A stretch of 64,000 bases of DNA, from contig JAGWIK010000004.1 in assembly GCA_028866275.1 (NCBI GenBank), positions 1 through 64,000 of the forward strand, in the 5' to 3' direction. This stretch comes from Alphaproteobacteria bacterium (GTDB taxonomy: Bacteria; Pseudomonadota; Alphaproteobacteria; UBA9219). A program made the translations under genes and the position numbers. Below the pieces are notes generated by a model. The model was not told the DNA's origin, did not search any database, and saw nothing but the letters and a program-made list of their open reading frames with translations. Within the stretch, counting starts at the first letter, position 1. Each line of letters opens with the position of its first letter. Below, piece by piece: positions 6,482 through 29,879 of the stretch.

Positions 6482-6813
6482 AGGATAATCTCCTTCCAGT
6501 TATTGGCTCCGAAAATAAGCGTATTCATATAGGTATTGCCAGACGACGAAATTTGCGTCGCCGGTGTTGCGGTTGTGGCCGGCGCCAGCGCGTTGCCGCC
6601 CCAATAGCCGAGCAGGGCGAGGCAGGCCAGCATTGCCACCTGCATGCGCCAAGCCGGATCGAAGACCGGCAGAAACAGGCGGGTTTTGCGTTGTTGCGGC
6701 GTTGCCGCGGCATTGAAGAGGACAGCGTCCAGAAGGCCGGCATTGTCGCGGTCCTGTATTTTACAGGCGTCAAGCGCGGCGCGCAGGCGGTTGTCGTCGT
6801 CATGTATCGTCAT
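6478..6813 (-). CDS. Putative anti-sigma factor
   Basis: A 111-residue protein with a cytoplasmic N-terminal half, one membrane helix (about 57-75) and a short periplasmic tail. Sequence similarity to a named family is weak; the call rests on topology and position directly downstream of an ECF sigma gene (32-base gap) and overlapping the sensor gene. The layout matches CnrY in the CnrYXH system, where a small membrane protein holds the sigma factor until the periplasmic partner signals. The start follows TTTAGGAGAGAG, an excellent ribosome-binding site that is a copy of the sequence spanning the sigma gene's stop codon. Confidence 0.6.
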   Translation of the reverse strand: MTIHDDDNRLRAALDACKIQDRDNAGLLDAVLFNAAATPQQRKTRLFLPVFDPAWRMQVAMLACLALLGYWGGNALAPATTATPATQISSSGNTYMNTLIFGANNWKEIIL

Positions 6814-6845
6814 GGTTTCTCTCTCCTAAAGTTTTTCGCTTTCTC

Positions 6846-7418
6846 CTAAAGCGAGGTTTCGGAAATCAGGCTCGTTTTCAAACTTTGTTTGGCGCGGAAC
6901 AGCAATTGCTGGAACGCGCCCAGCCGGATGCCCATCGCATCGGCTGAATCCTGATTGCTCATATTCTCATAATAACTAAGCACAATCGCGGCGCGTTGGC
7001 GATCAGGCAGGTCTTGCAATGCTTTTTGCACCTGCGCCGCCTGTTGCGCTTCGATCAGCCTGTCTTCGGCCAGCGGCGCGTCGTCGGCGATATGGTCGGC
7101 CCAGTCTTCGTCCGCGGGGGCCGCGGCCATGTGCGCCGTCGTCGTGCCGTTCTTGCGCCGCCGGTCGAGGCAGGCATTCAACACGATGCGGTAGAGCCAT
7201 GTCGAAAATTTGGCCCGCGGTTGCCAGCGCGGCGCTTCGACCCAGATTTTCAGGCACGCCTCTTGCATAACGTCTTCCGCATCCTGCCGGTTGCCGAGCA
7301 TGCGCTCGGCAACCTTGACGCTCCTGTTCAAATGCTTGCCCATCAATTCACGATAGGCGCGCATGTCCCCCAGCGCCACGCGCCCCATCAAATCGTGATC
7401 TGCGTCGCGTTGTTCCAA
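6846..7418 (-). CDS. ECF RNA polymerase sigma factor
   Basis: Region 2 is clear: DLMGRVALGDMRAYRELM, then DAEDVMQEACLKIWV and FSTWLYRIVLNACLDRRRK. Region 4 follows: LPDRQRAAIVLSYYENMSNQDSADAMGI with LLFRAKQSLK. About 190 aa, normal for an ECF sigma. The frame stays open far upstream, but that part is unlike any sigma N-terminus; a TTG at 7418 preceded by AAGGA with a 7-base gap is the most sensible start. It leads the cassette sigma - anti-sigma - sensor, so it is probably held inactive at the membrane and released by an envelope or metal signal. Targets are unknown; the divergent serine-rich EF-hand gene is a candidate. Confidence 0.85.
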   Translation of the reverse strand: MEQRDADHDLMGRVALGDMRAYRELMGKHLNRSVKVAERMLGNRQDAEDVMQEACLKIWVEAPRWQPRAKFSTWLYRIVLNACLDRRRKNGTTTAHMAAAPADEDWADHIADDAPLAEDRLIEAQQAAQVQKALQDLPDRQRAAIVLSYYENMSNQDSADAMGIRLGAFQQLLFRAKQSLKTSLISETSL

Positions 7419-26447: not shown

Positions 26448-27992
26448 GTGAAAAATTATTACATCACGACGCCGATTTACTATGTCAACGATGTGCCGCA
26501 TATCGGCCACGCTTATACCTCGCTGGCCTGCGATGTCATGGCGCGGTTCAAGCGGCTGGACGGCTATGACGTGATGTTTTTGTCGGGCACCGACGAACAC
26601 GGCCAGAAGATCGAAAAATCGGCGGTCAAGGCGGGCATGGACCCGCAGGCTTTTACCGACAAGGTTTCGCAAAATTTCCGCGATTTGCTGAAAACGCTTA
26701 ACGTGTCGAATGACGATTTCATTCGCACCACCGAAGCGCGGCATAAAAAAGCCTGTCAGGCTTTGTGGGACGCATTGCTGGCGCGGGGTGAAATATATCT
26801 GGGCAAATATGCCGGCTGGTATGCCGTGCGCGACGAAGCCTATTACGGCGAAGACGAATTGAAAGACGGCCCCGGCGGCAAGAAAATCGCGCCCAGCGGC
26901 GCGGAATGCGAATGGGTCGAAGAACCCAGTTATTTCTTTAAATTATCGGCGTGGGCCGACCGGCTTTTGGCGTTTTACGACCAAAATCCCGATTTCATCC
27001 TGCCGCACACGCGCCGCAACGAGGTTGTCAGCTTCGTCAAGTCCGGCATGCGCGATTTGTCGGTGTCGCGCACCGCGCTCAGCTGGGGCGTGCCGGTGCC
27101 GAACGAACCCGCGCATGTCATGTATGTGTGGCTTGATGCGTTGACCAATTACATCACTGCGGTCGGGTATCCCGACATGCAGGCCGACGGGTACAAAAAA
27201 TTCTGGCCCGCCGACGTCCATATGGTGGGCAAGGATATTTTGCGTTTCCATGCCGTTTATTGGCCGGCTTTTTTAATGGCCGCCGGGCTTGAACCGCCGA
27301 AACGCGTGTTCGCCCATGGCTGGTGGACGAACGAAGGCCAGAAAATTTCCAAATCGCTGGGCAATGTCATTGATCCTTACGAAGTGATCGCAACCTATGG
27401 GCTTGACCAGACGCGGTATTTTTTGATGCGTGAAGTGCCGTTCGGCAATGACGGCGACTTTTCGCGTGAAGCCATGGTGCGCCGTATCAACAGCGATCTG
27501 GCCAATGGTATCGGCAATCTGGCGCAACGGACTTTGTCGCAGATTGCCAAAAATTGCGGCGGCAAAGTCCCCGCGCACGGTGCATTTACCGACGCCGACG
27601 AGGCGTTGTTGTCGCGCGCCCGCGGGCTTGTCCCGCAACTGCGTTCATTGTTCGATGCGCAGGGTTTTTCCCGCGCGCTCGATCACATTTGGGACGTTAT
27701 CGGCGCGGCCGATCGCTATGTCGATGAACAGGCGCCGTGGGCGTTGAAGAAAACCGACATCGCGCGCATGGAAACCGTGCTTTATGTGCTGGCGGAAACG
27801 CTGCGCCATCTGGGCGTCGTGCTGCAACCCTTTATGCCCGACGCGGCGGCGCGGTTGCTCGACCAGCTGGCCGTGCCTGCCGATGCGCGCGCGTTCGAAC
27901 ATATCGAAGGCGACGCTTATGCGTTGCAATCCGGCACGCCCTTGCCCGCGCCGCAGGGCATTTTCCCGCGTTATATCGAAAACGCGGCCTGA
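26448..27992 (+). CDS. metG: Methionyl-tRNA synthetase
   Basis: Charges tRNA-Met. Class I signatures are HIGH at residues 18-21 (VPHIGHAYTS) and KISKS near residue 299. LSGTDEHGQKIEKSA, WLDALTNYITAVGYP and VGKDILRFHAVYWPAFL are the other canonical blocks. 514 aa with no C-terminal tRNA-binding (EMAP) domain, i.e. the short form common in alphaproteobacteria. Start is GTG at 26448 with CGAGGA upstream; no earlier in-frame start makes sense since MKNYYITTPIYYVND is the standard N-terminus. The next gene starts 5 bases after the stop. Confidence 0.97.
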   Translation: MKNYYITTPIYYVNDVPHIGHAYTSLACDVMARFKRLDGYDVMFLSGTDEHGQKIEKSAVKAGMDPQAFTDKVSQNFRDLLKTLNVSNDDFIRTTEARHKKACQALWDALLARGEIYLGKYAGWYAVRDEAYYGEDELKDGPGGKKIAPSGAECEWVEEPSYFFKLSAWADRLLAFYDQNPDFILPHTRRNEVVSFVKSGMRDLSVSRTALSWGVPVPNEPAHVMYVWLDALTNYITAVGYPDMQADGYKKFWPADVHMVGKDILRFHAVYWPAFLMAAGLEPPKRVFAHGWWTNEGQKISKSLGNVIDPYEVIATYGLDQTRYFLMREVPFGNDGDFSREAMVRRINSDLANGIGNLAQRTLSQIAKNCGGKVPAHGAFTDADEALLSRARGLVPQLRSLFDAQGFSRALDHIWDVIGAADRYVDEQAPWALKKTDIARMETVLYVLAETLRHLGVVLQPFMPDAAARLLDQLAVPADARAFEHIEGDAYALQSGTPLPAPQGIFPRYIENAA

Positions 27993-27997
27993 TCATC

Positions 27998-28495
27998 ATG
28001 ACCGATGCCGTCAGGCTGCGCTGGCACCATGTGTTGTGCATTCTCAATCACGGCGGCGACAGCCATACGCCGGCCCATGCCGCCCATATCGGCCGCATTA
28101 TCCGCAAGATCGAAGGCGGCGCGGCGATCAAGATTACCGCCGGCGCCGATGACATTTGCGGCGGCTTTGCCGCCGGTGATGCTATCCGGTGCAATCATGC
28201 CATGTCCTGCGACAGAAATAGAACCCTGCGCATGCTCGATCAGTGGGCGCGCGCCGACATCTGCGCCGCTTTGCAAATTCCCGCTTTGCAGGCGGGCGGC
28301 GATCTTGTGCTGAAAACCGGCGAAATCAAGCAGCTGCGTCTGGCCTATGCGGCAGGCAGGGCGCGCACCGCGTGCGGCGCATGCCGATGGAAAGACGCCT
28401 GCGCCGAAATGGCCGGAAAGAATTATCAGGGCGCGCGTTTGTGGCCCGATGCCGTGCCGGGGCGTTGGCCTTTCGTGGCTTCTTTATTGCCGTGA
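27998..28495 (+). CDS. DUF1284 family cysteine-rich protein (copy 1)
   Basis: 165 aa. It opens with VRLRWHHVLCILNHGGDS, the DUF1284 hallmark (RxHHxLC), then ITAGADDICGG, RCNHAMSC and ACGACRWKDAC. Eight or more cysteines fall in positions shared with the second copy (LC, DDIC, CxxxxxC, CxxCxxxxxC), which suggests a bound metal or Fe-S cluster; that is inference. The start lies 5 bases after the metG stop. There is no signal peptide, so it is cytoplasmic. It lies 18 bases before the biotin-ligase-like gene. The other copy is at 29412-29879. Confidence 0.8.
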   Translation: MTDAVRLRWHHVLCILNHGGDSHTPAHAAHIGRIIRKIEGGAAIKITAGADDICGGFAAGDAIRCNHAMSCDRNRTLRMLDQWARADICAALQIPALQAGGDLVLKTGEIKQLRLAYAAGRARTACGACRWKDACAEMAGKNYQGARLWPDAVPGRWPFVASLLP

Positions 28496-28513
28496 CCTAA
28501 GGGACAAACCGCT

Positions 28514-29419
28514 ATGTTTTTGCCGTATGAACAGGCTTTTTCGACCGCCATGGGCGGCGAGAATTATGAGAGCGAAACGCTGCGTTTTCTGGCGTCGACC
28601 GAAACGACAATCGGCGATATTGCCGCCGCCATCGCGCAAGGCAAACCGGCCGGATTCAGTATCTTCGCCCTCGAACAAACCAAAGGCCGCGGCGGCGGCG
28701 TCGACAAGGCGACCGGGCAAGTGCGCCAATGGTTTTCGGCCCCCGGCAATCTGATGCTCAGCTATGTCATCGACGCCGATATGGATTATCCTAAAGAGGT
28801 CGAATTTACCGACATGCTCGCCGTCGGCGAAATCGTTGCGGCGCTGGTGCCGCGCGGGCGCACGGTTTACAAATTTGCCAATGATATTCTGGTCGATGAT
28901 TGCAAGATCGCGGGCGGTCTTTATTTGCCGCATCCGTTTCCGTCCCGTGCCGCGCCGTTGGCCAGCATGAGCGTCGGTCTTAATATCGTGACCCCGCCGC
29001 CCGCTGCGGCGATGCGCGACAAATCGGTGGCGGTTGCGGGCACCTGTTTTGCGGATCACGGCGTTGATATCGATATTCCCCGTTTTATGCGGCTTTTTGA
29101 CGCGAAACGGGACGAGCTTGGCCGCATCCACCGCCAGCAGGGCTTTACCGCCATCCTGCAACGCATCGGATTTGCCGACAGCACAGGGCTTGTGACATTA
29201 TATGGTCGGGACGGCGCGCCCGTTTGTGGATCTTATGCAGGATTCGACGCGCAGCAAATCAGGCCCGACACTTATGCCAACTTTATCAGGCTCCGCATGG
29301 ACGACGGAAATATCAAGGCGCTTGCTTTCACCGATTATTGTGCCGCCGCCGTGATCAGGCCGATGGCGGCGGTGGGCGGTTATGCGCCGCGCCCGCCCGA
29401 TCGGGGGCCGCATGCCTGA
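28514..29419 (+). CDS. Biotin/lipoate protein ligase-like (BirA-type) enzyme
   Basis: 301 aa. The BPL/LplA/LipB catalytic fold is recognisable: EQTKGRGGGVDKATGQVRQWFSAPGNLMLSYVID corresponds to the BirA adenylation loop (GRGRRGR..W.SP..NL..S), and VYKFANDILVDDCKIAGGLYLP to KWPND...KxAGxL, keeping the catalytic Lys. BirA's Trp is Phe here and the loop reads GRGGG instead of GRGRRG. There is no N-terminal helix-turn-helix. The C-terminal part (about 205-301) is not the usual SH3-like lobe. It could ligate biotin, lipoate or another acyl group; its flanking DUF1284 genes suggest a specialised job. Overlaps the second DUF1284 gene by 8 bases. Confidence 0.68.
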   Translation: MFLPYEQAFSTAMGGENYESETLRFLASTETTIGDIAAAIAQGKPAGFSIFALEQTKGRGGGVDKATGQVRQWFSAPGNLMLSYVIDADMDYPKEVEFTDMLAVGEIVAALVPRGRTVYKFANDILVDDCKIAGGLYLPHPFPSRAAPLASMSVGLNIVTPPPAAAMRDKSVAVAGTCFADHGVDIDIPRFMRLFDAKRDELGRIHRQQGFTAILQRIGFADSTGLVTLYGRDGAPVCGSYAGFDAQQIRPDTYANFIRLRMDDGNIKALAFTDYCAAAVIRPMAAVGGYAPRPPDRGPHA

Positions 29420-29879
29420 GGGCGTCGTACGCCTGCGCGGGCATCATTTCCTGTGCATTCTGTCCTTTGTCGGCAAAGGCTATACCGACGATTTTGTCGA
29501 CAATATGCGCGCCGTCGTCGCTAAAATCGGGCGCGGCGCCGAAATCGAAATTATCGCCGGGCCGGACGATATCTGCGACGCCTTGCGCCGCGGGGCGGCC
29601 ATTTCCTGCGCGCATGCGCGCGTTTGCCGCGCGCCAAAGCCGCGGCACGAAGACAGGCTGGCCCTGCGGGACGCCGGACGCATTCTGCATCGACATTTGA
29701 AAATCGGCGACAGGCTGGTATTGACGCCGCGCGACATTGCGGCGCTGCGGCTGCATTTTGCGCATGGCGCCATTCGCCGCGCCTGCACATTATGCCCGTG
29801 GAAAAATATGTGTACCGGCATTGCCGAAAGCGGATTTGCCGGCGCGGTGCTTTTTCCGCCGGAAAAGATCACCTCTTAA
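29412..29879 (+). CDS. DUF1284 family cysteine-rich protein (copy 2)
   Basis: 155 aa, the more typical of the two copies: VRLRGHHFLCILSFVGKGYTDDFVDNM, IIAGPDDICDAL, SCAHARVC and CTLCPWKNMC. The cysteine positions match copy 1. The start is inside the end of the ligase-like gene (8-base overlap), so the two are translationally coupled. The gene ends 4 bases from the convergent cyclophilin gene. It has no membrane segment. I know of no established biochemical role for this family. Confidence 0.85.
   Translation: MPEGVVRLRGHHFLCILSFVGKGYTDDFVDNMRAVVAKIGRGAEIEIIAGPDDICDALRRGAAISCAHARVCRAPKPRHEDRLALRDAGRILHRHLKIGDRLVLTPRDIAALRLHFAHGAIRRACTLCPWKNMCTGIAESGFAGAVLFPPEKITS

Follow-up and report, generated by a model that had tools for sequence, protein, structure and literature searches.

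Organisation of the locus

The window, a stretch of 64,000 nucleotides from a 2.19 Mb alphaproteobacterial assembly, carries metG followed by a cassette of three genes, in which two members of the DUF1284 family (PF06935) flank a gene resembling a biotin protein ligase (Table 1). Together the four genes form a single operon-like run: DUF1284-A begins after a gap of 5 bases behind metG, the ligase-like gene after a further 18 bases, and DUF1284-B overlaps the end of the ligase-like gene by 8 bases. This spacing and the placement of the cassette after metG had been described in a first-pass annotation of the same DNA and were confirmed from the coordinates. The metG gene is probably just the upstream neighbour of the cassette and outside its function.

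Table 1. Genes of the metG-cassette run in the window.
Feature	Position	Strand	Basis
metG (methionyl-tRNA synthetase)	26448-27992	+	Identified by reading the ORF; the congeners G006 and G009 have it at this place too
DUF1284-A, extra fast-evolving copy	27998-28495	+	PF06935 31 bits (cut-off 25); alignment; branch 2.26
Divergent biotin-protein-ligase-like gene, 301 aa	28514-29419	+	hhalign against BirA 99.9%; PDB profile matches; own clade 100/100
DUF1284-B, conserved copy	29412 (ATG)-29879	+	PF06935 49 bits; same locus in congeners

The order metG-ligase-DUF1284 recurs at the matching locus in two congeneric genomes, G006 and G009, each with one DUF1284 copy, and in these as in the window an HAD phosphatase gene and lptD lie downstream of the cassette with other genes intervening. 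In genome G007, DUF1284 precedes ppiB, the HAD gene and lptD on a contig that ends just upstream of it. By this position, DUF1284-B matches the single DUF1284 of G006, G009 and G007, and the arrangement with DUF1284-A is peculiar to the window genome, which has exactly two DUF1284 genes, both in the cassette. Two paralogs do flank the ligase in the window, but the idea that both copies belong to the design found no support.

Conservation of the neighbourhood, which the first-pass annotation had proposed to look for in other genomes, was seen in the two congeners and nowhere else. Among the 33 genomes of the order that were searched, no cassette ligase was found besides those of the window, G006 and G009, and outside the genus no biotin protein ligase stands beside DUF1284 in the 80 loci of the scan described below or in 22 other loci. 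The pairing of ligase and DUF1284 belongs to a single lineage, with three genomes of the same genus, and may go back to a single historical event.

The DUF1284 proteins

Both cassette proteins exceed the curated Pfam cut-off of the family, and their alignment recovers the shared cysteine pattern that had been noticed earlier, with HHxLC, DDIC, one more cysteine and ACxxCxWxxxC present in both. Six cysteines and two histidines (HHxLC, DDxC, Cys, ACxxCxWxxxC) are invariant across 55 sequences, the two window copies included, and from these residues DUF1284 is predicted to be a cytoplasmic metal-site protein. The earlier idea of metal handling as the pathway found no support. DUF1284-A retains HHxLC, DDIC and ACxxCxWxxxC and has lost a GKGY motif; in the DUF1284 tree, in which the row G060_bioY was disregarded, its branch length is 2.26 as compared to 0.88 for DUF1284-B. 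The predicted DUF1284 structure is confident (pLDDT 88), and neither Foldseek nor VIA-align returned a counterpart of the fold in the PDB.

A second DUF1284 subfamily with a CxxCP...C pattern was also observed (L055 at 6536-6952, L070, L071 and L153-L155). The L055 member abuts bioY, that of genome G352 (L155) and bioY are convergent at a distance of about 0.4 kb, and others stand alone.

The cassette ligase

Sequence comparison places the cassette ligase among the biotin protein ligases, as a divergent lineage. It aligns with ordinary BirA by hhalign at a probability of 99.9% over residues about 23-275, and its significant matches among NCBIfam and PDB profiles are biotin ligases throughout. 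The canonical C-terminal lobe, reported as lacking in the first-pass annotation, is covered by this profile-profile alignment and is expanded by an insertion. The N-terminal helix-turn-helix of the Group II BirA repressors is absent, with only some 22 residues preceding the catalytic domain. The scores fall below the curated cut-offs of TIGR00121 (43.5 bits, cut-off 83.1) and PF03099 (15.7 bits, cut-off 21), which is why the protein was not classed with ordinary BirA. Whether it would group with ordinary BirA, a question raised at the outset, was answered by the tree, in which the ligases of the window, G006 and G009 fall together in a single clade (100/100), separate from the BirA sequences of related genomes. 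The branch of the window ligase measures 2.44 against 0.65 for that of G006.

The motifs read at first sight were found again: the catalytic lysine (Lys120) is kept, GRGGG replaces GRGRRG and phenylalanine replaces tryptophan. At the GRGRRG position the three cassette ligases have GRGGG, GRGTD and GRGSG, and the residue equivalent to Arg118 of E. coli BirA is absent in all three. The KWPND motif reads KFAND in the window ligase and KYPND in G006 and G009. In E. coli BirA the R118G substitution lowers biotin affinity, leaks biotinyl-AMP and yields promiscuous labelling, while the matching R69A substitution in the Mycobacterium tuberculosis ligase causes neither lower affinity nor promiscuity (PMC3048393). 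Since the two enzymes behave differently, promiscuity of the cassette ligases is not to be assumed; a leaky enzyme may occur and is not predicted.

It may be asked whether the ligase instead uses another acyl substrate (lipoate or some new cofactor), the DUF1284 proteins being its dedicated metal-handling partner. The altered loop (GRG[GTS] for GRGR in 3/3 cassette ligases), the scores under the Pfam and TIGRFAM cut-offs and the degradation of KWPND to KFAND in the window would be in keeping with such a change, but KYPND is kept in the congeners, a biotin/lipoate ligase in the PDB (6jhu) has GRGT as well, and among NCBIfam and PDB profiles significance was reached by biotin ligases only. Moreover, DUF1284 is linked to biotin in other genomes, and AccB would stay unloaded in G006, from which birA has been lost (see below). 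We consider this explanation quite improbable. A lipoate ligase proper was dropped as a candidate, as no match among the NCBIfam and PDB profiles was in its favour.

Probable loss of birA in a congener

The order nuoN-birA is conserved across the order and is found in the window genome too, which has an ordinary birA on contig C69; birA is likewise kept in G009. In G006 no birA follows nuoN (L215, G006:C13, 1-243, minus strand), where about 240 bases with stops in all frames lead to the contig end, and two genome searches returned no ligase other than that of the cassette. The absence of birA from G006 is deduced from these searches and from the empty nuoN site, with about 1.1 Mb of the genome read. 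Because birA is gone from its place, the cassette ligase of G006 is most likely responsible for all loading of AccB and would be a natural BirA replacement, lacking the very arginine that keeps E. coli BirA from leaking. Loss of birA would hold the cassette ligase to this job, and where birA is kept the ligase could drift or adopt a new task.

The latter situation applies to the window genome, and one may speculate that its cassette is a leftover, decaying or redundant, with birA doing the work while the ligase and DUF1284-A drift. The ordinary BirA encoded on C69, the long branches of the window ligase (in comparison with G006) and of DUF1284-A, the KFAND motif and the loss of GKGY are all consistent with this. 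However, drift alone would erode three open frames, their tight spacing and the retained cysteines, histidines and catalytic lysine, and a remnant is in our opinion rather unlikely.

Association of DUF1284 with bioY and BioR

A GTDB-wide profile scan of 84,980 genomes, with a narrow alignment as query, returned 80 DUF1284 loci, which lean to the Rhizobiales because of the query alignment. In 71 of these 80 loci DUF1284 is the gene immediately after bioY, in the same orientation, and the two genes overlap by 4 bases in 40 of the 71. An exact BioR operator, TTATCTATAA, is located within 150 bases before bioY in 62 of the 71, compared to 0.18 expected from shuffles, and most of the bioY-DUF1284 loci are preceded by a BioR-type GntR gene. 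Support independent of the Rhizobiales-leaning scan comes from a class-wide alphaproteobacterial panel, where bioY and DUF1284 are adjacent on one strand in 7 of the 11 genomes having both, and from genome G037, in which a DUF1284 of a distant subfamily overlaps or abuts bioY. Gene order and operator sites taken together place DUF1284 in the biotin regulon, where it is encoded with BioY under the BioR operator in many alphaproteobacteria. A search of 5.39 million papers for DUF1284 or COG3543 gave no mention, and an earlier remark on a gene beside bioY may exist in the BioR papers; it seems that this conserved partner of BioY, under control of the biotin repressor BioR, had escaped notice.

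The bioY-DUF1284 pair is plasmid-borne in five genera (Rhodovulum, Agrobacterium, Roseovarius, Pseudosulfitobacter and, in Dinoroseobacter shibae, Dinoroseobacter), and most bioY-DUF1284 loci overall have no bioM or bioN alongside. On plasmid pDSHI01 of D. shibae (L072, 4435-7272) the pair is convergent to ecfT-ATPase-bioY, which makes up a full ECF transporter operon for biotin. The species is auxotrophic for biotin, and its bioY Dshi_3688 rises in the stationary phase of the algal partner; pDSHI01 determines killing of the algal host, and three mutants in the ecfT-ATPase-bioY operon lose killing (PMC8831719).

A minority of DUF1284 genes are found in unrelated neighbourhoods, and such varied places in some genomes are what would be expected if the genes behind metG in the window were unrelated and merely happened to follow it. 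The recurrence of the gene order in three congeners and the independent link to biotin that bioY and BioR provide across many families argue against chance, which was rejected in the main and is very improbable indeed.

Further neighbourhoods were noted in passing. In a Rhizobiaceae bacterium (L080, 3944-6429), DUF1284 overlaps by 4 bases a gene that was read as coding for a prolyl oligopeptidase-type protein, with no bioY nearby, and a prolyl oligopeptidase gene is also near DUF1284 in Agrobacterium vitis (L068). In the sister genus g2 (L059, L060 and L061), DUF1284 is divergent from an ExeA-like ATPase gene with no biotin gene in sight, and in L059 and L060 this pair lies at the margin of a locus of exopolysaccharide type.

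Biotin in the window genome

The window genome encodes a biotinyl AccB and the ordinary BirA, and neither bioB (above cut-off), bioD nor bioY was found in it; G006 and G009 look alike in this setting. Without bioB and bioD, the organism must scavenge its biotin. No BioY was found in its whole family either, and since this family needs biotin, an importer of an unrecognised kind is to be expected. A BioR box was looked for in the window and not found: there is no exact operator TTATCTATAA, and the two one-mismatch sites at 59 kb are at chance level.

Among 15 DUF1284 carriers in a sample of the class, BioB is absent in 9 and kept in 6, five of these six in one genus. DUF1284 as a strict replacement of BioB was therefore rejected, and the observation that these six carriers keep BioB ties DUF1284 to scavenging and not to the loss of BioB as such.

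Discussion

Synthesis of biotin is missing in many alphaproteobacteria, and scavenging of this vitamin determines which organisms live together in the sea, in soil and in symbiosis. The most plausible explanation of the observations above, to which we assign a probability of about 0.75, is that the cassette forms a module for the salvage of biotin in an organism auxotrophic for it. Biotin or a vitamer would be scavenged from outside, with BioY as importer in the bioY-linked carriers; DUF1284, as an Fe-S-type enzyme, could then convert a scavenged vitamer, e.g. oxidised or incomplete biotin, to biotin, which the cassette ligase would adenylate and attach. Against this explanation stand the lack of a BioR box in the window and of BioY in its whole family, the restriction of the ligase pairing to one genus, the DUF1284 carriers that keep BioB and the minority of DUF1284 genes in unrelated neighbourhoods. 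The first-pass annotation had envisaged an unrecognised cofactor pathway made up of a ligase and metal-type proteins, and its outline is supported, with biotin as the most likely cofactor, but no support was found for the metal-handling part.

The individual steps differ in strength. DUF1284 probably acts on scavenged biotin or its vitamer between uptake and attachment, and may contact the ligase directly. Vitamer-converting Fe-S-type chemistry is the mechanism favoured here, with the odds leaning against it, and catalysis by DUF1284 is a guess in that no likeness to any known enzyme was found in fold or sequence. A precedent is offered by Paracoccus denitrificans, where a second bioB belongs to the bioY operon and was taken by the authors to serve the conversion of imported desthiobiotin (PMC4554459); in that operon a vitamer-converting Fe-S enzyme takes the position that DUF1284 has in its operons. 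The fullest version, in which DUF1284 is a new biotin-salvage enzyme unrelated to BioB that turns a vitamer into biotin after uptake by BioY, and in which the cassette ligase with its rebuilt biotin loop is a natural BirA replacement in one lineage, is on the whole rather unlikely.

Close behind the enzyme reading comes a role for DUF1284 as a non-catalytic carrier, retention factor or transport accessory, which would help BioY trap biotin and hand it to the ligase. The translational coupling to bioY suggested by the 4-base overlaps, the 8-base overlap with a biotin ligase in the genus of the window and the often solitary BioY, mostly without its own bioM and bioN, would all suit such a protein, but six invariant cysteines and two histidines suggest a metal site that is needless in a plain carrier, and we hold this role to be doubtful. 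Under the salvage module as favoured here, DUF1284, a family of unknown function, can be put directly to the test as a component of vitamin B7 uptake.

Comparison with known systems

The BioR-controlled bioY uptake operons, e.g. bioYB2 of P. denitrificans (PMC4554459), resemble the DUF1284 loci in combining an importer with a co-transcribed cytoplasmic partner under a BioR box in an auxotroph or scavenger. They differ in that the partner is bioB and not DUF1284, and the genus of the window departs further by having a biotin ligase in the stead of the importer and, in the window, no BioR box. With Group I biotin protein ligases, which are BirA without the DNA-binding domain, the cassette ligase shares a catalytic domain with GRG and the catalytic lysine as well as the C-terminal lobe, whereas it forms a clade of its own below the curated cut-offs, has no Arg118 equivalent, carries inserted residues in the lobe and, in the window copy, reads KFAND. 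The same arginine of the biotin-binding loop is missing in BirA R118G (BioID) and in the mycobacterial R69A mutant (PMC3048393), but its loss in the cassette ligases is natural and extends across the whole clade. Finally, both cassette proteins are members of PF06935 by its own cut-off, a family for which no role was found in the literature searched and to which a biotin context is added here.
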